NCBI GenBank assembly: GCA_025359485.1 | Contig: JANYGA010000243.1 | Span: 1 to 37,405 of the forward strand | Source: Rhodospirillales bacterium | Lineage (GTDB): Bacteria; Vulcanimicrobiota; Vulcanimicrobiia; Vulcanimicrobiales; Vulcanimicrobiaceae | Length of the DNA: 37,405 nucleotides | Direction of reading: 5' to 3' | Shown: positions 8,614 to 20,769 of the stretch, piece after piece | Layout: each line of letters begins with the position of its first letter | Position numbering within the stretch: position 1 is the stretch's first letter | The notes under the pieces: generated by a model | What the model saw: only the letters and a program-made list of their open reading frames with translations | What the model was told of the DNA's origin: nothing | Databases searched by the model: none | Translations under genes and position numbers: made by a program

Positions 8614-9291
8614 GTGCGACGCATCGTAGCGCTCGAACTCATGGACCGGCCCGGCGTCGACGTCGGAGAATTTCGCGCGAACTTCGACGACATCGAATTC
8701 GCGAATCGATACTTCGGCGGTTCGAGGCCGGTGACGCGCGAGGTTCTCTCCCACGCCGCATCGCGCGGCGACTTCGGCGTCCTCGACGTCGGATGCGGGA
8801 GCGCCGATATCGCGCGCGCGCTCGTACGTGCGACGACGACATCGCTCACCGTCGTCGCACTCGATAGCAATGCCGACATTCTCGCGATCGCGCGCGAACG
8901 CACGCCCGCAACGGCACCGATCTCATTCGTGCACGCCGAGGGCGGCGCGTTGCCGTTCGAGGATGCGTCGTTCGATCTCGCCATGTGTAATCTCGCACTC
9001 CATCATTTCGAACCGCAGGACGCGGTTGCGATGTTGCGCGAATTACGACGCGTTTCGCGCGTCACGCCGCTCGTCTGCGATCTCGTGCGATCGCGCATCG
9101 CGTTTATCGGCGCGTGGCTCTTCGCACGAATCCTCGCGAAAAACCGTCTCACGAGACACGATGGACCGCTCTCCGTACGCCGTGCCTACACGCCGAGCGA
9201 AGCACTCGCGCTCGCACGCGACGCAGGTTGGCGTGCGCCTCGCGTCACGCGCGAACCGTTCTTTCGGATGGTCCTAACCGATGGCATCTAA
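8614..9291 (+). CDS. Class I SAM-dependent methyltransferase
   Basis: VLDVGCGSADIARALV motif I; ALPFEDASFDLAMCNLALHHFEPQDAVAMLRELRRV. Start may be 8614 (GTG) or 8641 (ATG). Confidence 0.85.
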   Translation: MRRIVALELMDRPGVDVGEFRANFDDIEFANRYFGGSRPVTREVLSHAASRGDFGVLDVGCGSADIARALVRATTTSLTVVALDSNADILAIARERTPATAPISFVHAEGGALPFEDASFDLAMCNLALHHFEPQDAVAMLRELRRVSRVTPLVCDLVRSRIAFIGAWLFARILAKNRLTRHDGPLSVRRAYTPSEALALARDAGWRAPRVTREPFFRMVLTDGI

Positions 9292-10459
9292 CGTCGTGAT
9301 CGTCGGCGGTGGGCCCGCAGGTTCGGCGTGCGCGCTCGCGCTCGTCCGCGCGGGCATCGACGTCACGATCGTCGAGCGTCAACGATTTCCGCGCCGTAAA
9401 GTTTGCGGCGAATATCTCAACGGTGGTGCCGTCGCGGCACTCGACGCACTCGGAGTCGGCGACGCGGTGCGTGCGGTCGCGCGTCCGCTGCGCGGCATTC
9501 GCATCGTGCCCCCGGGCACCGAAGCGATCGAGCTTCCTTTTCCGACGCCCGCACTCGCATGCGCGCGCGAGTTGCTCGACGACGTGTTGTTGTGTGCGGC
9601 GCGCGACGCGGGCGCGACGGTGATGCGCGGACAGGCGGAAGACCTCGTGCGCGATGGTTCGCGCGTGAGCGGCATCATCGTCCGCGACGAAGCGGGCGAA
9701 CGCCGGACGCTTCGTGCGCGCTACGTCGTCGGTGCCGATGGGGCCGGCTCGCTCGTCGCGCGCAAGCTCGGGCTCGATGTGACGAAACGCGGAACGAGGC
9801 GGTTCGCCGTTGGCGGGCATTACCGTGGATTCGGCGATCTCGACGAACACGTGGAGATGTACGTCGGGACGGGTGCGTATTTCGCGATCAACCCGCTCGC
9901 AGCGGATCGTTCGAACGTGATGGTCGTGGTCCGCGATCGCGACCTCGCGACGTGGTCGGGCGCCGTCGACGACGGCATGCGCGGAAAGGCGGCGGATCTC
10001 GGCCGCGGCCATCGCAGTTTTACGGGCGCCGAGCGCGTCGGAGCGCGCGTTTCGGTCGGGCCGCTCGCCTTCGACGTGAGCGCCGTCGTCGCCGATGGCG
10101 CCGTGCTCGTCGGCGATGCGGCGGGCTTTCTCAACCCGTTCACGGGTCAAGGTGTCTTCCTCGCGCTTCGCGGTGCGAGCGATGCGGCAGTCGCGATCGA
10201 GCGTTCGCTCGATGACCGCGCGCATGCGGCGGATGCGCTCGGCGAATATGCGAGCCGTCGTGCATCGGATTTCGCCGTGCGACGGAAACTCACGAAACTC
10301 GTCGACGTGCTCGTCGACGTTCCCATTCTCGCGCGTCGTGCGGCATCGCGCTTGCGCGCTCGTCCCGACCTCGGTGCCACACTTTTGGGCGCGCTTGCGG
10401 GCACGGTCGCGCCCGAACGTGCGCTCTCGCCCGCACTTGTGGGCAGACTCGTCCTATGA
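9281..10459 (+). CDS. FAD-dependent oxidoreductase, geranylgeranyl-reductase family
   Basis: VVIVGGGPAGSACALALVRAGIDVTIVERQRFPRRKVCGEYLNGG; GADGAGSLVARKLGL; VLVGDAAGFLNPFTGQGVFLALRGA. Overlaps the methyltransferase end by 11 nt. Confidence 0.88.
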   Translation: MASNVVIVGGGPAGSACALALVRAGIDVTIVERQRFPRRKVCGEYLNGGAVAALDALGVGDAVRAVARPLRGIRIVPPGTEAIELPFPTPALACARELLDDVLLCAARDAGATVMRGQAEDLVRDGSRVSGIIVRDEAGERRTLRARYVVGADGAGSLVARKLGLDVTKRGTRRFAVGGHYRGFGDLDEHVEMYVGTGAYFAINPLAADRSNVMVVVRDRDLATWSGAVDDGMRGKAADLGRGHRSFTGAERVGARVSVGPLAFDVSAVVADGAVLVGDAAGFLNPFTGQGVFLALRGASDAAVAIERSLDDRAHAADALGEYASRRASDFAVRRKLTKLVDVLVDVPILARRAASRLRARPDLGATLLGALAGTVAPERALSPALVGRLVL

Positions 10460-10905
10460 CACACATGTCGAGTGAGGTCGCGATCAAAGCACCGACCCAG
10501 AAGATTTACGCGATGGCTGCCGCGACCGAGACGTGGCCCGCGATTTTGCCCCATTATCGATACGTGCGCGTCCTTTCCGACGACGGCCGCAAGCGCGTGG
10601 TCGAGATGGGCGCATCGCGCGATGGCATTCCGATTTCGTGGACGGCCGAACAAATCAACGATCCGCACGAGCCGCTCATTTCGTTTCGCCATGTGCGTGG
10701 CTGGACCAAAGGCATGGAGGTTGCGTGGCGTTTCGCCGAACGCGACGGCATCACACGCGTCACGATCGAGCATCATCTGCAATTCGCTTTTCCGGTCGCG
10801 AGCGACTGGCTCGGGCGCAACGTCGTCGGCGGATTCTTCGTCGATAACGTTGCGGGCAAGACGCTCGCGCGCATGAAGATGCTTGCGGAAGCCGCCGCCC
10901 GATGA
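10456..10905 (+). CDS. SRPBCC-fold protein, polyketide cyclase/aromatase-like
   Basis: EVAIKAPTQKIYAMAAATETWPAILPHYRYVRVL...; ATGA overlap with both the preceding and the following gene. Confidence 0.72.
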   Translation: MTHMSSEVAIKAPTQKIYAMAAATETWPAILPHYRYVRVLSDDGRKRVVEMGASRDGIPISWTAEQINDPHEPLISFRHVRGWTKGMEVAWRFAERDGITRVTIEHHLQFAFPVASDWLGRNVVGGFFVDNVAGKTLARMKMLAEAAAR

Positions 10906-12146
10906 TCGCCGAGCATCGCGTCGTCGTTACCGGAATTGGGATCGTCTCGCCGATCGGCACGGGCGTGCGTGCGTTCTGGGATGGTGCGCTCTCCGGTCGC
11001 GTCGGCACGGCACCGCTCACGCGCTTCGACCCGAGCGACTTCGATTCACACGTCGCCGCGCAGGCCGACGATTTCGACGCGGGCGATTACTTAGATACCA
11101 AAGTGTATCGCCGAACCGATCGTTTCGCACAATTCGCCCTCGTCGCATCGCAACTCGCCCTCGACGATGCGTCGCTCGCGATCCCCGCCGAAGGTCGCGA
11201 CGACGTGGGCGTCTACATCGGTTCGGCGCTCGGTGGCCTCGCGTTCGCGGAGACGCAACACGACGCGTTCCGTGCGACGGGCGCGCGCGCGGTACGGCCG
11301 TTGCTCGCGATCTCGGTCTTCGGCGCGGCGTCGACGAGCAACGTCGCGCTCGCTTTCGGATTGCGTGGCCCCGGCGTCGCCAATGCCAACTCGTGTGCGG
11401 CGGGAGCGGTCGCCATCGGCGATGCATTTCGTGCCGTCGCGCGCGGCGACGTGCGTGCCGCACTCGCGGGTGGGGCCGAAGCACCGCTCTCGCCGCTGAT
11501 CTTCGGCGCGTTCGCGGTCATCAAATCGATGTCGACGCGGAACGACGATCCGACACGCGCGAGCCGTCCGTTCGATCGCGATCGCGATGGCTTCGTGATG
11601 AGCGAAGGCGCGGCGATGCTCGTCCTCGAGCGTCACGACGATGCGGTCGCTCGCGGCGCGCGCATCTACGGCGAGATCGCGGGCTTCGGCCTCACGGCGG
11701 ATGCCTATCACATGACGGCGCCGCAACCCGAGGGCCGGAACTCGTCGCGGGCGATGCACGCGGCGCTCACCGAAGCGCGCGTCGGTGTCGACGAAGTCGA
11801 ACTCGTCGACGCGCACGGCTCGTCGAGTCTCCTTAACGACGCGACGGAAACGATCGCGCTCAAGGCACTCTTCGGCGAACGCGCTTTCGACGTGCCGATC
11901 GTCGCAACCAAGGGTCAGCACGGCCACGCACTCGGCGCGAGCGGTGCGTGGGAGGCGGCGCTTTCGCTGCTCATGATTCACGAGGGCCGCGTCCCCGGCG
12001 CCGTCAATCTCGAGCATGCCGATCCCGCGTGCGACCTCGATTACGTTCGCGACGTCAGAGCTATGGCGCCCCGCGTGGTCCTTTCCAATTCGACGGGCTT
12101 CGGCGGGATCAACGCCGCGCTCGTGCTTCGAAAGATCGAGAACTAA
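10902..12146 (+). CDS. Beta-ketoacyl-ACP synthase (KAS II/FabF-like ketosynthase)
   Basis: VVVTGIGIVSPIGTGV; NANSCAAGAVAIGDAF (Cys), VDAHGSSSLLNDATE (His), ATKGQHGHALGASGAWEA (Lys/His), SNSTGFGGINAALV. Confidence 0.88.
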   Translation: MIAEHRVVVTGIGIVSPIGTGVRAFWDGALSGRVGTAPLTRFDPSDFDSHVAAQADDFDAGDYLDTKVYRRTDRFAQFALVASQLALDDASLAIPAEGRDDVGVYIGSALGGLAFAETQHDAFRATGARAVRPLLAISVFGAASTSNVALAFGLRGPGVANANSCAAGAVAIGDAFRAVARGDVRAALAGGAEAPLSPLIFGAFAVIKSMSTRNDDPTRASRPFDRDRDGFVMSEGAAMLVLERHDDAVARGARIYGEIAGFGLTADAYHMTAPQPEGRNSSRAMHAALTEARVGVDEVELVDAHGSSSLLNDATETIALKALFGERAFDVPIVATKGQHGHALGASGAWEAALSLLMIHEGRVPGAVNLEHADPACDLDYVRDVRAMAPRVVLSNSTGFGGINAALVLRKIEN

Positions 12147-12153
12147 GCTACCG

Positions 12154-12882
12154 ATGGATTCCGAAACCCTCGCCCCGCCCGCATCGAAGAGTTCCAACTC
12201 GCTCGCGACGACGACCACGGCGCGCGCGATCGATGCGGTGAAATTCTACACGGGCGCGGGCGACGAGCCCGTGCACGCACTCGACGGCGTCTCCCTCGAG
12301 ATTCGAGCCGGGGAGATGGTGGCGCTCGTGGGCCCCAGCGGCTGCGGGAAAAGTACGCTCCTGAACCTCATCGGCTGCGTCGATCTGCCGACGCGCGGCA
12401 CGATCGAGGTCGACGGTCGCGCGACCTCGTCGCTCAACGACGATGCGCTCACGGGGTTACGTCGCGAACGCATCGGGACCGTCTTTCAGTTCTTCAATTT
12501 GTTGCCGGCGATGACGATTGCGGAAAACGTCGGCTTGCCACTCGTGCTGCAACGTGTTCCGCGCGGCGAGATCGACGCGCGCGTCCGCGCCGCACTCGAA
12601 GCGGTCGGGATTTTCGAAAAAGCCGGCGCCTACCCGAGCCAAGTCTCCGGTGGCCAGATGCAACGCGCCGCGATCGCGCGCGCCACCATCCACAAGCCCG
12701 CGATCGTCCTCGCCGACGAGCCGACGGGAAATCTCGATTCGACGAGCGGTGCAAACGTGCTGCGGCTCTTGCGCGACGTGGCCTCCAACGGTCAGGCAAT
12801 CTTGATGGCAACGCACTCGATGGAAGCGGCCGCGGTGTGCGACCGCGTGATCCACATGCAAGACGGCAAGATCGTCGCCTAG
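12154..12882 (+). CDS. ABC transporter ATP-binding protein (LolD/MacB/AttE-like)
   Basis: [17 protein letters not shown] Walker [15 protein letters not shown] signature; [13 protein letters not shown] Walker [12 protein letters not shown] at 12154. Confidence 0.92.
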
Positions 12883-12965
12883 CGCCGCACCGTAGCGGAC
12901 GTGCGATCCGTCACGTTGGGTCGTCGGTCGTAACATCGCGCGGTCGCCGCGATAGGGGGCCGAGA

Positions 12966-13880
12966 ATGGTGTTTGCGATCGTCACGACACTCGCCCTTGC
13001 AACACTCCTAGCCTTGCGGGCGACGTACTGGGCCACTCCGCGAGACGACGATTCGATACCGCCGATTCCGCAGCCGATCGATCCGATCGAGCTCGCCTAT
13101 TTGCGTCGCGGACCGGGCGATGCGGTCCGTGTCGCAGCGGTGGCACTCGCCGAACGCGGGATCATCCGCATCGCAGACGACGTGCTCTCGACGACGGGCG
13201 AGCCGTTGGGCTCACGCGACGACGCATTTGCGAACGCCATCTACGACGGGTTGCGCGTCGCGAGGACGTTTCCCGAACTCGTCAAGATCATCGAGCTTCC
13301 GTTTCGCGCGGCGCTCGAACCACTCGATCGTCGGCTCCGCGAGGAGGGTTTGTTGCGGCGCTCCATTCCCGCCGGAATGCAGGCGATCGGTACGCTCGGG
13401 CTCGTGCTCGTCGGCATCATTGCAGCCGTGGCGTCCCGACCGATCGGTGCGCGTGACGGATTCTTCGCGGTCGCGCTCTTGCTCACGTCGTTGACGGCGT
13501 TCGAAATCGTCGCGTTCGGGACTTTGATGCGGCCACGCCTCACACGTCGTGGCAAGCGTTATCTCGCGCAATTTCAAACCGGATTTCCGTCCGATACGCT
13601 ACGCGCATCGATGCGGCACGAGCGCGCCTCCGCGCTTTTCGCCGCGCCGCTGCTCGTCGGTCTCTACGGCATCTCCGCGCTCGCCGCTACGCCGCTATCG
13701 GCGGCCGCGCTCGCCATGCGTCGCCCGCGTCGGTCGACGGGGTCGGGCGGTGGCTGCGGCGGGTGCGGAACCGGATGGAGCGGTGGCTGCGGCTGCTGCT
13801 CGGGATCGAGCGGCTCGAGTTGCGGGAGCGGTTGCAGTAGCGGATGCGGCGGCGGATGTGGTGGCGGGTGCGGGGGATGA
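12966..13880 (+). CDS. TIGR04222-like multi-pass membrane protein with Gly/Ser/Cys-rich C-terminal tail
   Basis: 304 aa. N-terminal TM, soluble region IDPIELAYLRRGPGDAVRVAAVALAERGIIRI, further hydrophobic segments, and tail TGSGGGCGGCGTGWSGGCGCCSGSSGSSCGSGCSSGCGGGCGGGCGG. Family name from recall of the layout, not a search. Confidence 0.72.
   Translation: MVFAIVTTLALATLLALRATYWATPRDDDSIPPIPQPIDPIELAYLRRGPGDAVRVAAVALAERGIIRIADDVLSTTGEPLGSRDDAFANAIYDGLRVARTFPELVKIIELPFRAALEPLDRRLREEGLLRRSIPAGMQAIGTLGLVLVGIIAAVASRPIGARDGFFAVALLLTSLTAFEIVAFGTLMRPRLTRRGKRYLAQFQTGFPSDTLRASMRHERASALFAAPLLVGLYGISALAATPLSAAALAMRRPRRSTGSGGGCGGCGTGWSGGCGCCSGSSGSSCGSGCSSGCGGGCGGGCGG
13737..13877 (+). other. Coding segment for the 47-residue Cys-rich tail (10 Cys), candidate modification substrate
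   Basis: Direct translation in the frame of 12966-13880; Cys mostly separated by runs of Gly/Ser. Confidence 0.7.
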
Positions 13881-14710
13881 GCGCCGGTTCACCCGTCGGC
13901 ATGCTCTTTCGCAAGCGATATCTTGCCGATCACTTGCGCGATCGTGAGGGTGTCGATTTTCTCGAACTCTGCACCGACCACTATCTCGACAATACGCCGA
14001 GCGTCGCAGACGAACTTGGTTTGCTCGTAAAGCATTTTACCTGCGTTCCGCACGGCATCGATCTCTCGCTCGGAAGTCGCGACGGTATCGTCGAGTCGTA
14101 TCTCGATGATGTGCTGCGCGTCGTGGAACAGATACGGCCGCCGTGGTTTTCCGATCATCTCGCCTTCACGCGTGCGGGTGGCTACGAAATCGGGCACCTC
14201 GCGCCGATTCCCCTCACGCGTGATGCGCTCGATACGCTCGCGCGGAACGTCGCCCGCGTTACGGCTCGCACGCGCGTGCCGTTCGCACTGGAAAACGTCG
14301 CGGCGACCTTCGCGTTTCCCCACGCCGAAATGTCACCGGGAGCGTTCGTGCGCGAACTCGTCGCGCGAACCGGATGCGGTCTCGTCATCGACGTCGCGAA
14401 TCTCGCGTGCGACGAAATCAACCTCGGCCACGCGCCCGAAGCATTCATCGACGCCGTCCCGCCCGAGGCGATCGTGCAGGTGCATCTTGCGGGCGCTCAC
14501 GACGATGGCGGCATCGCCGTCGATAGCCACTCGAGCCCGGTTCCGCCGCGTGTCTGGCAGCTTCTCGAACGCGTCGTCGATGTGGCGCCACACGCGTGGC
14601 TCACGCTCGAACGCGAAGAAGCGCTCCCGCCGTATCACGAAATCGCGCGCGAACTCGACGCGGCACGAGCACTCGCCGCGCGCGTGCGCAACGGTCGCGT
14701 GCCGGCATGA
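13877..14710 (+). CDS. DUF692/MNIO (multinuclear non-heme iron oxidase) family protein, MbnB/TglH/BufB-like
   Basis: VPHGIDLSLGSRDG, PPWFSDHLAF, GHLAPIPLTRDAL, PFALENVAATF, GLVIDVANLACDEINLGH, VQVHLAGAHDDGGIAVDSHSSPVPPRVWQLLE, LEREEALPPYHEI match the order of DUF692 motifs. ATGA overlap with the upstream stop. Confidence 0.88.
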   Translation: MSAGSPVGMLFRKRYLADHLRDREGVDFLELCTDHYLDNTPSVADELGLLVKHFTCVPHGIDLSLGSRDGIVESYLDDVLRVVEQIRPPWFSDHLAFTRAGGYEIGHLAPIPLTRDALDTLARNVARVTARTRVPFALENVAATFAFPHAEMSPGAFVRELVARTGCGLVIDVANLACDEINLGHAPEAFIDAVPPEAIVQVHLAGAHDDGGIAVDSHSSPVPPRVWQLLERVVDVAPHAWLTLEREEALPPYHEIARELDAARALAARVRNGRVPA

Positions 14711-15213
14711 GCGCGCGCTTCGCGGCAACGACCGTGACCGACGAGATGCAGATCGAATTCGCGCGGCTCGTCACGTCGCCCGCGGCGCGCGCGCGCTTTG
14801 CGAACGCGCCGAGCGAGGAAGCCCCCGCGCTCGCGGATCTTTCATCGCAATCGGTGACGTACTACGCAAACGCGCTGCTCGCGAAGCGCCTGCACGAAAT
14901 ACGTCGATTGCTGCCGAGCATCGGTCGCCGAGGTGATCTGCGCGCCCGCTTCGCCGCGCATGCGATGGGCTTCGCGCCCGGCGGGCACGGCCGTCATCGC
15001 GAAGATGCCATCGCCTTCGCGCGGACACTCGGCGATGATGCCCGCCTCGATCGTCTCGCGCTCGAAGCTACGCGTGGCGACCGTTTCGGCGCATTGGCGA
15101 TCGCGCACGGTCACCTCTCGTGGTGGTTTCGTCCGTGGAAGCACGCGCGGTTATGGTCGGGTCGCCTCGCCGTCCCACGTCGGCGCACGGGCGAATCCGA
15201 GCAACGGCGGTAA
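14707..15213 (+). CDS. Small Cys-free protein in the position of an MNIO partner (MbnC/TglI/DUF2063-like position)
   Basis: 168 aa; ATGA overlap with the DUF692 gene; SSQSVTYYANALLAKRLHEIRRLLPSIGRRGDLRARFAAHA is loosely reminiscent of MNIO partner/DUF2063 proteins. Confidence 0.6.
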   Translation: MSARFAATTVTDEMQIEFARLVTSPAARARFANAPSEEAPALADLSSQSVTYYANALLAKRLHEIRRLLPSIGRRGDLRARFAAHAMGFAPGGHGRHREDAIAFARTLGDDARLDRLALEATRGDRFGALAIAHGHLSWWFRPWKHARLWSGRLAVPRRRTGESEQRR

Positions 15214-15309
15214 CGCAGGCGATCCTTCGCGATCGGCGAGCGGGAATGCGCCCAACCGCAACGATTCGGAAGCTTGGTGGCGTCCAACGGCCGATATGGT
15301 CGGTAACCC

Positions 15310-17892
15310 GTGAACGCACTCTTTCAAGGCCTCGTCCTCGGACATCTGCGGGCGAACAAGCTGCGCGCGCTCGTCACGCTCGTGGCCGTCGGCCTTGGGG
15401 TCGCGATCTCACTTGCGATCGATCTCGCCAACGCCACCGCCGTCGCGTCCTTCGCCTCGAGCGTCAATATCGTCGCCAACCACGTGAATCTCCAAGTGGT
15501 CGGTGTCGGGCGTGGCTTCGACGAGCGCGCGCTCGTGCGCGTCCAGCACGTGGACGGCGTGTCGTACGCGAGCCCGACGATCGAAGAATCGGTCGTCGTC
15601 GGTGCGAAGCCGGGCGATCCGTTCAGTGGTGAAATATTACGCGTCCTCGGCGTCGATCTATTGCGACCGCTGCCGAGCGACGACACCGCGCGCGTCGCGA
15701 CACCGGGCGAGTTCGTGAGCAGTAGCGGCGCGGGACCCGATCCGTACGCCCTCATCGCGAATCGTGGCGCGATCGTCTCCAAACGTATCGCCGTTAAGCG
15801 CCATCTCAATCTCGGCAGCAATCTCGTCGCGCTCGCGGGCGATCGCACGGTGAAATTTCAAATCGGTGCGATTTTGCCCGCGGCGGTTGCGGGCATCGAT
15901 ACGAGCGTGATGTTCGTCGACATCGCGACCGCGCAAGAACTCTTCGAAAAGGTTGGCTATCTCGATCGCATCGATATTGTCGCCGACGAAAAGCGCGTCG
16001 ATACCGTGCAGAAGGCGATCGCCGCGGTCTTGCCACACGGCGCGCGCGTGATCAAACCCGCCGTGCGCACGAACGAGATCAAGCGCATGTTGCGTAGCTT
16101 CCAACTCAACTTGGCCGCACTGTCGTACATCGCGATGCTCGTGGGCATGTATCTCATTTACAACACGGTGGCGATCTCCGTCGTGCAGCGGCGCCCCGAA
16201 GTCGGCACGCTACGTGCGCTCGGCGCCACACGCGGGCAGATCTTCCGCACGTTCATTCTCGAAGGTGCGCTCTTCGGCGTTGCGGGCTCGCTCCTGGGGC
16301 TCGTGCTCGGCGGATTGCTCGCTCAACTCTCGGTCGGCGCGGTTTCGCGCACGGTCGATGCGCTCTACGTCGCGACGCATGCGGACCGCGTGTTTTACGA
16401 TCCGCTGGTCTTGCTCAAAGCCTTCGTCGTCGGCACGGTGCTCGCGACGCTTTCGGCGCTCTTCCCCGCGCTCGAAGCGGCATCGACGGCGCCCGCACTC
16501 ACGATGCGCGCGCAAGGCTTCGAAACGCGACGCAAACGTCCGGGTGTTGGGCTCGCAATCGGTGGTGCGGTGCTGCTCGTCTTCGCATACGTGCTCACGT
16601 TCCCACCGCCGATCGACGGCATTCCGGTCAGCGGCTATGCCGCGGGCTTGTTGATCATTTTCGGCGGGTCGCTCTGCGTGCCGCTCGCAATCGCGCTGGT
16701 CTCCGCTGCCGCGCGGTCGCTCACGGCGAAGATCTCGCCCGCGGGCCTCATCGGCGCGACCAACCTCGGTGCGTCGATTCGACGCAACAGCGTCGCGGTC
16801 GCGAGCCTCATGGTCGCTATCGCGATGATGGTCTCGGTCGCGATCCTCATCGGGAGTTTTCGCACGACCGTCGTTGCGTGGGCGGATGAAACGCTCAAGG
16901 CCGATCTCTTCGTGCGACCCCTCGGCCTCCAAGACGCAAGCTACGACGCGCGATTTAGCGCCAACGTCGCCGAGCGCATCCGCGCCGTGCCGGGCGTTTT
17001 CGCCGTCGATACGTTCCGCGCGATTTCGATCCCGTACAAGGGTTCGCTCACGACGATCGCCGCCGCAGATTTCAAGACGATCGCCGATCGCAATAAGCTA
17101 CGTTTTCTCGGCGCGGTCGATACGCGCGCGCTCGCGCACACGATGCCGAACACCGAGAATATCGTGATCAGCGAGCCCTTTTCGACGCGCTTCGGGGTGA
17201 CCGCGGGAGATTCGGTCGAGATCGATACGCCGGGTGGTCTCACGCGTTTCCACGTCAATGCGATCTACAACGATTATTCGAGCGACGCTGGGATCATGCT
17301 CGTCGATTCGCGCACGTTCGCGCGCCTGTTTCACGACACGAGCGTGAATTCGCTCGCCATCTACGCGAAACCGGGTGCGGACCTTCCGGCACTTCGAACC
17401 GCGGTCATTCGCAGCGTGTTGCCGTTGCGCATCGACGTGCAGACGACGCGCGAACTCCGTAAACTCGTGATCGAGATTTTCAACCGTACCTTCGCGATCA
17501 CGTACGCGCTCTATATCATCTCGATTACGATCGCGGTGCTCGGGGTCGTGAGTACGCTCTTCGCCCTGGTTCTCGAACGGCGCCGCGAAATCGGCCTGTT
17601 GCGCTATCTCGGGCTCACCACGGGCGACGTGCGGCGCATGGTCTTTTACGAGGCTGCGTACATCGGCGGGCTCGGCGGCGTGAGCGGCGTGATTGCGGGC
17701 GTGCTCATGGCGCTGCTGCTCATTTTCGTGATCAACCGCCAGGCCTTCGGATGGCTCATCGAGTTGCACATGCCGTGGGATTTCCTGGGTGAAGCGATCG
17801 TGCTCGTGATCGTCGCGGCGCTCATCGCCGGCATTTTCCCCGCGTCGGTTGCGGCGCGCATGAAGACGGCGGAAGCGGTGCGAACCGAATGA
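15310..17892 (+). CDS. ABC transporter permease with two FtsX-like domains
   Basis: N-terminal LRANKLRALVTLVAVGLGVAISLAID; VVQRRPEVGTLRALGATRGQIFRTFILEGALFG; VLERRREIGLLRYLGLTTGDVRRMVFYEAAYIGG. GTG start at 15310. Confidence 0.92.
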   Translation: MNALFQGLVLGHLRANKLRALVTLVAVGLGVAISLAIDLANATAVASFASSVNIVANHVNLQVVGVGRGFDERALVRVQHVDGVSYASPTIEESVVVGAKPGDPFSGEILRVLGVDLLRPLPSDDTARVATPGEFVSSSGAGPDPYALIANRGAIVSKRIAVKRHLNLGSNLVALAGDRTVKFQIGAILPAAVAGIDTSVMFVDIATAQELFEKVGYLDRIDIVADEKRVDTVQKAIAAVLPHGARVIKPAVRTNEIKRMLRSFQLNLAALSYIAMLVGMYLIYNTVAISVVQRRPEVGTLRALGATRGQIFRTFILEGALFGVAGSLLGLVLGGLLAQLSVGAVSRTVDALYVATHADRVFYDPLVLLKAFVVGTVLATLSALFPALEAASTAPALTMRAQGFETRRKRPGVGLAIGGAVLLVFAYVLTFPPPIDGIPVSGYAAGLLIIFGGSLCVPLAIALVSAAARSLTAKISPAGLIGATNLGASIRRNSVAVASLMVAIAMMVSVAILIGSFRTTVVAWADETLKADLFVRPLGLQDASYDARFSANVAERIRAVPGVFAVDTFRAISIPYKGSLTTIAAADFKTIADRNKLRFLGAVDTRALAHTMPNTENIVISEPFSTRFGVTAGDSVEIDTPGGLTRFHVNAIYNDYSSDAGIMLVDSRTFARLFHDTSVNSLAIYAKPGADLPALRTAVIRSVLPLRIDVQTTRELRKLVIEIFNRTFAITYALYIISITIAVLGVVSTLFALVLERRREIGLLRYLGLTTGDVRRMVFYEAAYIGGLGGVSGVIAGVLMALLLIFVINRQAFGWLIELHMPWDFLGEAIVLVIVAALIAGIFPASVAARMKTAEAVRTE

Positions 17893-19088
17893 GCCCGCGC
17901 GGTCTCGGCAGTTTGCAATCGCATCGAAAAGGATCGGCTTCGTTGTTCCATCGTCTCGTCGCTTCGGTCACCGCGATCGTCATACTCGCCACGACGTTGG
18001 CATCGCCGAGCGATGCGGCGATCACGCCGAGCGGATTTACGATTGCTACGGCACCGTACCAGTTCGTCTTCCCGCGCGATCATGGCGCCCACCCGGGGTA
18101 TCAGAGCGAGTGGTGGTACTACACGGGCCATCTCAAGACGACCGACGGTCGCCGCTTCGGGTACGAGCTCACGTTTTTCCGCGTCGGACTCAAGCCGGGC
18201 GATCCGCAACCCGGCCCCACGCAGAGTCGCTGGCGCGGACACGAACTCTATCCCGCGCACTTCGCGCTCACCGACGAAGCGGGTAAGACGTTCTTCCACG
18301 TCGATCGGTTCGCTCGTGAAGCGATCGGAATGGGCTCGGCGGCGAAAGGCAAACTCGACGTTCGCGCCGACGATTGGTCGCTCGCGGGCTCGCCTGCGGG
18401 CGGAGCCGATCGCGAGCGCATGACGATGCACGCGCGCGCGCAAACGCCCGATGGCGTCGACGCGATCGATCTCGTGCAGATGCCCGCAAAGCCGCCCGCG
18501 ATCCACGGTCACGACGGCATCTCGAGAAAAGCGCAGTGTCCGAGTTGCGCGTCGCATTATTATTCGTACACGCGTTTACGAACGACGGGCTCGCTGACGT
18601 TTCACGGCAAGAAACTCGCCGTCGATGGACTCTCGTGGATGGATCACGAGTACGGCTCGGACGAACTCCAGCGCGACCAAGCGGGTTGGGACTGGTTCGC
18701 GATTCAACTCGACGATAAGCGCGAGCTCATGCTCTACTTGCTCCGGCAAAAAGACGGGAGCGTCACGCCGCAATCCAGCGGCAGTCTCGTCAATCCCGAT
18801 GGCAGCGTCACGTATCTTCGCCGGAGTGATTTTGCGATCGAGAAAACGGCGACGTGGCACTCACCGCACACCGGTGGCACGTATCCCAGCGGCTGGCGCG
18901 TGAAGATCGCCTCGCACGATGTCGATCTCGTGCTCGCGCCGACGGTCGCGGATCAAGAGCTTGCGGGAACATCGACCGGCGTTTCGTATTGGGAAGGCGC
19001 GGTCGACGTCCTCGATGCATCGGGCAAGACGCCGCTCGGCGTCGGATACGTCGAAATGACGGGTTACGCGGGCGCGATCTCGCTCTAG
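17889..19088 (+). CDS. Secreted AttH/CrtC-like lipocalin-family protein
   Basis: FVFPRDHGAHPGYQSEWWYYTGHLKTTDGRRFGYELTFFR...; LSWMDHEYGSDELQRDQAGWDWFAIQLDD; ATGA overlap with the permease. Confidence 0.82.
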   Translation: MSPRGLGSLQSHRKGSASLFHRLVASVTAIVILATTLASPSDAAITPSGFTIATAPYQFVFPRDHGAHPGYQSEWWYYTGHLKTTDGRRFGYELTFFRVGLKPGDPQPGPTQSRWRGHELYPAHFALTDEAGKTFFHVDRFAREAIGMGSAAKGKLDVRADDWSLAGSPAGGADRERMTMHARAQTPDGVDAIDLVQMPAKPPAIHGHDGISRKAQCPSCASHYYSYTRLRTTGSLTFHGKKLAVDGLSWMDHEYGSDELQRDQAGWDWFAIQLDDKRELMLYLLRQKDGSVTPQSSGSLVNPDGSVTYLRRSDFAIEKTATWHSPHTGGTYPSGWRVKIASHDVDLVLAPTVADQELAGTSTGVSYWEGAVDVLDASGKTPLGVGYVEMTGYAGAISL

Positions 19089-19098
19089 GGGAAACTTC

Positions 19099-20769
19099 AT
19101 GCAGTGGATGGCCGATATCTCCGCACCGAGCGATGCCGCGCTTGCCCAAACGTACGCGCGCATAAACGCCGGGCTCGATGCGGAACCGAACGTCGCAGGG
19201 TGGCGCGCGTCATTCGATGCGTGGGACGGCGCGCGGCGATCGTGGAAATCGTGGTCGAATCTGACGCGATTGCGTTACAGCCAAGATACACGACGCGATG
19301 ATTTTCGTTCGGCACAAACCGAACTCGATCGCCGAACGCCCGGTATGACGTCGCTCGATACCGCGATGAAGCAACGCTTTCTTACATCGGATGCACGGCC
19401 CGGTCTCGAAGATGCACTCGGCACGCATGCATTCGAACTCTGGGATGCCGACGTCACGACCTTCGACGATGCGATCGCGAGCGATCTCGTCCGCGAATCG
19501 GAGCTCGCGCGCGAGTACACGGAATTGCTCGCGACGGCGACCGTCGCATTCGACGGTGAAGAACGCAGCCTCGGTGGGCTCGGTCGCTATCTGCAAGACG
19601 GCGATCGCGGCGTGCGTCACGCGGCCGAGAGCGCGCGGTGGTCCGCGTTTTCGCAACGCTCCGAGCGCCTCGATGCGATCTTCGGCGACCTCGTAGCGAC
19701 GCGCGATCGCATGGCGCGCACGCTCGGCTTCGCAAACTATATCGAGCTCGGCTACAAACGCATGCGTCGTGTCGGCTACGGCGCGACCGATGTCGCGAGC
19801 TATCGCGATGAGGTGGCGCGCGTCGTCGTGCCTTTCGCACACGATCTCGTCAAACGCCACGGCGCTGCGGCCGGGTACGATCGCGTTCGCTTTTGGGACG
19901 AGACTTCGCTCGGCGTCGGCGGCCCGATCGCGCCGCGCGGCGATCGGCCGTGGACGCTCGATCGCACCCGAGAAGCGCTCGCCGCCATCGATCCCGCACT
20001 CGGTGAATTCGTCAACATCATGCTCGACGGCGATCTGCTCGACGTCGATAATCGTCCGGGCAAGGCGCTCGGCGCGTATTGCACGATGTTTCCGACGCGG
20101 AAGGTGCCGTTCGTCTTTGCGAACTTCAACGGCACGCGTGGTGACGTGCGCACGCTGATGCACGAACTCGGGCACGCATTTCAAGCCTATAGCAGTCGAG
20201 ATAAAATCGCCGTCGATTATCTCACGCCGACGTACGAATCGGCCGAGATTCACTCGATGTCGCTCGAGTATCTTTCGTGGCCGCAGATGGAGCGCTACTT
20301 CGGCGACGATGCCGATGCGTATCGGCGCGAGCATCTGCTCGATGCGATGCTCTTCCTGCCCTACGGCGTCGCCGTCGATCACTTCCAACATCTCATCTAC
20401 GCGAACCCGTCGGCGACGCCCGCCGAGCGGCATGCGATGTGGCAAGAGATGGAACGACGGTATCTTCCGTGGCGCGATTACGGCGATCTCGCGCACCCCG
20501 CCATGGGTGGGCTCTGGCAAGAGAAGCGCCACATCTATGTCGCGCCGTTCTACTACATCGATTACACGCTCGCGCTCTGCTGTGCGTTGCAGTTTTGGGT
20601 GAAGGCGCAATCCGATCGCAGCACGACGCTCGCGGAGTACATCGCGCTCTGCAGCCGTGGCGGCGAGGCATCGTTCGGAACGCTCGTCGCGTCGGCGGGG
20701 CTGCGCAATCCCTTCGAGCCTGGCGCCCTCGCGGGCGTGGTTAGCGCCGCACGCGCAGCGTTCGCGTAG
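19099..20769 (+). CDS. M3 family metallopeptidase (oligoendopeptidase F-like)
   Basis: LMHELGHAFQAYSSRDK (HExxH) and TYESAEIHSMSLEYLSWPQMERYF. Confidence 0.9.
   Translation: MQWMADISAPSDAALAQTYARINAGLDAEPNVAGWRASFDAWDGARRSWKSWSNLTRLRYSQDTRRDDFRSAQTELDRRTPGMTSLDTAMKQRFLTSDARPGLEDALGTHAFELWDADVTTFDDAIASDLVRESELAREYTELLATATVAFDGEERSLGGLGRYLQDGDRGVRHAAESARWSAFSQRSERLDAIFGDLVATRDRMARTLGFANYIELGYKRMRRVGYGATDVASYRDEVARVVVPFAHDLVKRHGAAAGYDRVRFWDETSLGVGGPIAPRGDRPWTLDRTREALAAIDPALGEFVNIMLDGDLLDVDNRPGKALGAYCTMFPTRKVPFVFANFNGTRGDVRTLMHELGHAFQAYSSRDKIAVDYLTPTYESAEIHSMSLEYLSWPQMERYFGDDADAYRREHLLDAMLFLPYGVAVDHFQHLIYANPSATPAERHAMWQEMERRYLPWRDYGDLAHPAMGGLWQEKRHIYVAPFYYIDYTLALCCALQFWVKAQSDRSTTLAEYIALCSRGGEASFGTLVASAGLRNPFEPGALAGVVSAARAAFA

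Follow-up and report, generated by a model that had tools for sequence, protein, structure and literature searches.

Do MNIO enzymes modify the tails of large proteins, rather than peptides? This question is raised by a three-gene locus of a Candidatus Eremiobacterota (Vulcanimicrobiota) genome, in which a gene for a TIGR04222 membrane protein is followed by genes for an MNIO (DUF692) oxidase and a small partner protein; we refer to the whole 37,405-nucleotide stretch of DNA analyzed as the window. The pairing itself is not new, having already been published as a hypothesis: In a computational study, Antoine et al. 2025 described more than 3,500 TIGR04222 proteins and proposed that MNIOs act on Cys-tailed subsets of them, noting PME-type 2 partners (PMC12452194); both the three gene types and the tail-substrate proposal are those that we consider here. 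That paper was the only place in which we met the term TIGR04222 in the open literature searched, where we found no TIGR04222 tail tested and no chemistry demonstrated. A term search of the same paper found no Eremiobacterota, no fusion in this group, no proteins with a tail but lacking transmembrane (TM) segments, and no glycine-rich-domain extensions. What we add is linkage across seven phyla, the frequency of the partner, an enzyme–partner fusion, a slot within an ABC transporter operon, TM-less relatives, and Cys tails in MNIO-free genomes on proteins with an N-terminal extension. On balance we favor the reading that the three genes form one modification cassette, in which the MNIO oxidizes tail cysteines, with 5-thiooxazole as the probable product and a metal-binding tail as the result. 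If the tail is indeed modified, MNIO chemistry extends to metal ligands anchored on proteins, in phyla that have received little study; if it is not, a large enzyme clade is left without a substrate.

All three genes lie on the forward strand: the TIGR04222 gene, encoding the putative substrate, at 12966..13880 (304 aa, with an ATG start at 12966), the MNIO gene at 13877..14710 (277 aa), and the partner gene at 14707..15213 (168 aa). Upon re-derivation of coordinates and frames, the genes proved to be joined by ATGA overlaps at 13877-13880 and 14707-14710, just as the original prediction had it. The claim that they form a unit is likewise supported, since the same gene order and overlaps of 4-10 nt recur in homologues and the arrangement is thus not due to chance. 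The cassette is flanked, also on the forward strand, by genes for an ABC transporter ATPase (12154..12882; ABC_tran E 2e-34) and an FtsX/LolCE-type permease with orthologues in relatives (15310..17892; FtsX E 3e-37). The intergenic spaces measure only 83 nt on the 5' side (12883-12965) and 96 nt on the 3' side (15214-15309), and within the cassette the genes overlap, so that a separate short precursor gene would not fit, in line with the original prediction. A genome search returned a single MNIO gene and a single TIGR04222 gene, both in the cassette, and the viral contigs searched gave no match.

The DUF692 assignment of the second gene held up in an HMM search, in which PF05114 matched 13877-14710 with 243 bits (E 4e-72) against a gathering score of 25. 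Nine positions of the enzyme (H59, H94, E139, D172, N175, H203, D216, H218, and E245) correspond by motif and spacing to the nine iron ligands of TglH (H71, H107, E151, D184, N187, H216, D229, H231, and E258; PMC10880893), and are invariant in 9/9 relatives. The enzyme has no signal peptide and is cytosolic. At the same time, it falls below the cut-offs of all the named NCBIfam equivalogs, scoring 197 bits against BufB (NF050167, cut-off 310), 157 against the HvfB type (NF003818, cut-off 360), and a distant 51.6 against MbnB (cut-off 325), with ApyH and ChrH likewise under their cut-offs; it therefore stands outside the named chemical types, and their known chemistry is not directly transferable. 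A tree of 44 MNIOs divides 34 TIGR04222-type rows from 10 bufferin-type rows with support of 100/100, although this tree is not a survey, as sampling was seeded with cassette enzymes and the bufferin rows come from Eremiobacterota only. Six of the 34 rows lack a Cys-tail label under the automatic local criterion. In four of these (L079, L074, L080, and L210) the TIGR04222 gene lies slightly farther upstream, L061/L040 lies at a contig edge, and L082, from Plesiocystis, is a true exception. Bufferin-type MNIO genes with partner genes of DUF2063 length occur in other Eremiobacterota (L019, L020, L022-L027, and L065), on the separate enzyme branch.

The third gene product matches no family in Pfam or NCBIfam; in particular, the suggested search for PF09836 (DUF2063) drew a blank, and phmmer, hmmsearch, and PHROGs searches with the partner as query gave nothing useful. 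In a profile–profile comparison, the partner aligned with DUF2063-type partners over 122 colinear columns (E 1.2e-4, probability 55%), versus a probability of 0.1 for a control comparison with the MNIO profile, and it is on this remote match that we describe it as DUF2063-like, a candidate PME-type 2 partner. Assigning partner classes by eye in 32 loci with TIGR04222-linked MNIOs, we found a separate full-length partner gene downstream in 26, mostly with a 4- or 10-nt overlap. The remaining six comprise one fusion, three loci whose partner ORF is short (70-101 aa), and two enzymes with only a C-terminal extension, of 69 or 91 aa. The fusion, the only one found, is a 529-aa ORF in genome G132 (L061, reverse strand), in which the MNIO is joined to a DUF2063-like partner domain. 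By comparison, the previous study noted PME-type 2 genes in 10% or more of TIGR04222 clusters, many of which seemed partnerless (PMC12452194).

What, then, might the enzyme act on? The first gene product had been described as TIGR04222-like, and the TIGR04222 model bears this out with 73.6 bits (E 1.8e-20) against a curated cut-off of 43. Its last 47 residues form a Gly/Ser/Cys tail (13737..13877), the putative modification site, with 10 cysteines, seven of them followed by Gly; the predicted tail is thus confirmed, and it holds every Cys of the protein. Structure prediction with AF2 from an alignment of 17 sequences reached a pLDDT of 73.7 (the sequence alone gave 44, which is unusable), and the resulting model has a winged-helix-like N-domain, three TM helices, a broken segment-4 helix, and a disordered tail (pLDDT about 41-44); compared with solved structures, it had no match (best E 1.4). 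TM1 (residues 1-19, 12966..13022) is evident from hydropathy and summed insertion free energy and corresponds to model helix 2-22. It is followed by the N-domain (residues 40-126, 13083..13343; pLDDT 69-91), a helix-helix-two-strand wing-helix-helix arrangement carrying the conserved motif DPxEIAYLRGG, which alignments show to be still present in TM-less relatives. Next comes a TM2-TM3 hairpin (residues 138-184, 13377..13517; model helices 136-156 and 163-187), recognized by hydropathy and flanking charge, with the basic motif RLTRRGKR directly after it. Segment 4 (residues 223-241, 13632..13688) is a weakly hydrophobic LALxVALFGxxAL-type helix with an invariant glycine, G235, at which the modeled helix breaks (222-234, then 236-241). 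It may serve as a recognition helix; its occurrence in MNIO-free TIGR04222 members as well implies that recognition, if real, is not its sole role.

As to topology, we lean toward an N-out protein with three TM segments whose N-domain and tail are cytosolic, on the enzyme's side. Such a topology is favored because the positive flank is strongest after TM3 (up to +5) and because segment 4, broken at G235 in the model, is a poor TM segment in most members; for the TM-less relatives, a cytosolic N-domain and tail must hold in any case. Across MNIO-linked homologues, TM1, TM2, and TM3 stand out as the best hydrophobic stretches, and segment 4 is weak with its Gly invariant: On a crude scale that has no position or length terms, the summed free energy has a median of +4.7 for segment 4 versus -1.7 for the best-scoring window of the TM2/TM3 region. 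A variant of the main reading, to which we give a substantial but smaller chance, has the tail modified before or during insertion and ending up periplasmic. Antoine et al. predicted such a location, and bufferins are exported once modified (PMC12452194); the window protein, moreover, has a fairly hydrophobic segment 4 (KD 1.94). The charge peak after TM3, the poor quality of segment 4 as a TM segment in most members, and its break at the invariant glycine in the model argue instead for the cytosolic tail.

Relatives that have lost the TM segments bear directly on this choice. In genome G122, the slot between the ATPase and permease genes encodes a 224-aa protein that lacks TM1, TM2, and TM3 but keeps the Cys/His/Gly tail and the N-domain motif (IDPIEVAFVRKG in G122 versus IDPIELAYLRRG in the window); it matches the window protein in tblastn with E 5e-13, a score to which the low-complexity tail contributes. 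The TIGR04222 model gives no hit on this protein, and thus misses such TM-less cases. The slot protein of G118 is TM-less in the same way, with its N-domain and tail in different frames, indicating that this copy is broken or mis-sequenced and leaving G122 as the intact case. Given the loss of TM1-3 in these proteins, what stays beside the enzyme is the N-domain, segment 4, and the tail. The original prediction had placed modification at the C-terminus of an integral membrane protein: The tail stands as the likeliest substrate, whereas the restriction to membrane proteins is too narrow in light of G122 and G118. As a candidate substrate that is short and probably soluble, the G122 protein also makes the idea of tail modification testable.

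The linkage of enzyme and tail was assessed by scanning genome contigs with enzyme peptides alone (a four-member alignment), which yielded 16 loci in seven phyla: Eremiobacterota, Planctomycetota, Actinomycetota, Pseudomonadota, Verrucomicrobiota, Myxococcota, and Bacteroidota. A Cys-tailed TIGR04222 gene lies immediately upstream in 15 of them, the exception being Plesiocystis, so that the linkage expected from the original prediction is conserved across genomes. Viewed from the other side, of the TIGR04222 genes lying no more than 3 kb from an MNIO, 24 of 25 encode a tail of at least three Cys, and the exception is the second of a tandem TIGR04222 pair whose other member has the tail. Tandem TIGR04222 genes of this kind, one with a Cys tail and one without, are seen 5' of a single MNIO in L240 / L074:4032-5890. 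Strains of Methylocystis contain the full cassette.

Cys tails are, however, also found where the enzyme is not. In a comparison set drawn from Eremiobacterota, Actinomycetota, and Planctomycetota, 16 genomes, some of which may be incomplete, encode TIGR04222 proteins with tails of 3-8 Cys, and no MNIO gene was found in them; we accordingly rejected the Cys tail alone as a mark of an MNIO substrate. Related figures have been published, with one-third of TIGR04222 genomes lacking an MNIO and over one-quarter of TIGR04222 proteins lacking tail Cys (PMC12452194). The tail is thus useful without the enzyme, and either predates its link to the enzyme or extends more widely than that link. This keeps alive a competing explanation, to which we assign a minor share of the probability, under which the thiol-rich tail binds metal without being modified and the MNIO acts elsewhere, on a precursor encoded at another place in the genome or on a non-Cys residue of the TIGR04222 protein. 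Two Cys-tailed paralogues without an adjacent MNIO (G137:C10 and G138:C134) would fit, as would the modification of Asp, Asn, or Phe by some MNIOs (PMC12452194). Against it, the operon gaps hold no other candidate precursor, the enzyme is tied to TIGR04222 in nearly all of the enzyme-seeded loci, and the tail is still there where TM1-3 are lost. Furthermore, 12 of the 16 MNIO-free tailed proteins are built differently: at the N-terminus they carry an additional domain, about 190 aa long (motif VDxxWHxHLxYT...HHxPS), that bears a weak likeness to GRDP (E 0.11). Among TIGR-seeded proteins, 0/15 with this extended architecture are MNIO-adjacent, versus 16/25 of the others (p 3.6e-5, which is indicative only since related sequences are not independent; G277 was placed in the extended set by eye). 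In the non-extended TIGR04222 proteins, having a Cys tail is not significantly associated with lying next to an MNIO (p 0.06). The extended proteins (L208, L209, L211-L218, L222, L227, L228, and L233, and also L207) are about 480-540 aa long, Cys-tailed, and never MNIO-adjacent; their extra domain carries the motifs VDxxWHxHLxYT and HHxPSxGG, and their architecture resembles that of glycine-rich-domain proteins.

Returning to tail modification by a cassette, for which the iron ligands, the linkage, the joint movement and loss of the genes, the tail kept in TM-less relatives, and the enzyme–partner fusion all speak, we can outline how it would proceed. The cytosolic MNIO and its DUF2063-like partner would bind the TIGR04222 protein through the N-domain, segment 4, or both, and with Fe and O2 would oxidize cysteines of the Gly/Ser/Cys tail, the presumed substrate. 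The likeliest product would be 5-thiooxazole at several Cys, a four-electron oxidation with loss of 4 H (about 4 Da) per residue, and the modified tail would then act as a soft-metal chelator, probably for copper. We consider 5-thiooxazole and copper binding likeliest because of the precedent of an MNIO with a DUF2063-type partner: Together with PME1, an MNIO forms 5-thiooxazole, with 4 Da lost per Cys, at repeated KCG motifs (PMC13097082). Compared with the EGKCG context of proven thiooxazole substrates, the window tail shares Cys-Gly (7/10 cysteines) in a Gly/Ser setting, and has no Lys. The bufferins and captophorins (BufA-BufB-BufC, HvfABC, and FonABC) are similar in combining an MNIO and a DUF2063-type partner with repeated Cys, often as Cys-Gly; their precursors are short with Sec signal peptides and their partners belong to PF09836, whereas the window has a large multi-domain membrane protein as candidate substrate, a partner without the PF09836 signature, and an enzyme on a separate branch. 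TglHI and MbnBC share the nine-ligand iron site and the heterodimer of MNIO and small partner, but differ from the window cassette in substrates and partner families. More tentatively, MNIO–partner complexes might modify the tails of whole folded proteins, membrane-bound or TM-less, in the cytosol, with the N-domain and LALxxALFG helix replacing a RiPP leader and the product being an anchored thiooxazole-type chelator in at least seven phyla.

The position of the cassette raises one further possibility, namely that it belongs functionally to the FabF / ABC ATPase / FtsX permease / CrtC operon around it, as might be suggested by its lying, in the window, G118, and G122, between the genes for ATPase and permease. 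We regard this as very improbable. Orthologues of both transporter genes occur in about two dozen relatives, and in most of those without the cassette they directly adjoin, leaving the slot empty; other cassettes lie elsewhere in G061, G073, and G095, with the ATPase–permease pair intact in G061, and in other phyla the cassette is found on unrelated contigs. In support of the cassette as a unit, G094, which is the nearest relative judged by the permease (81% identity), has none of the TIGR04222, MNIO, and partner genes. The permease tree makes the window sister to this empty-slot genome (100/100), and the enzyme tree groups it with G118, G121, and G122 (96/94); we infer one ancestral insertion followed by several losses of the whole cassette, repeated insertion being the alternative. 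In G036, an 85% complete draft genome, the slot (L055:4779-6034) retains a TIGR04222 domain in a tail-less gene, with tail, MNIO, and partner all absent, and contains in place of the latter two a gene of the MntP family (PF02659, E 5e-30), a putative manganese exporter. In G093, about 1.9 kb without a recognizable gene separate the ATPase and permease genes (L114:5036-6969), possibly a decayed insert. Beyond the transporter genes, the window encodes, at 8614-12146 and 17889-20769, a methyltransferase, an FAD oxidoreductase, a polyketide cyclase-like protein, a FabF-type ketosynthase, a CrtC/AttH-type lipocalin protein, and an M3 peptidase, and the neighborhood has the appearance of a lipid or polyketide locus that includes an ABC exporter.
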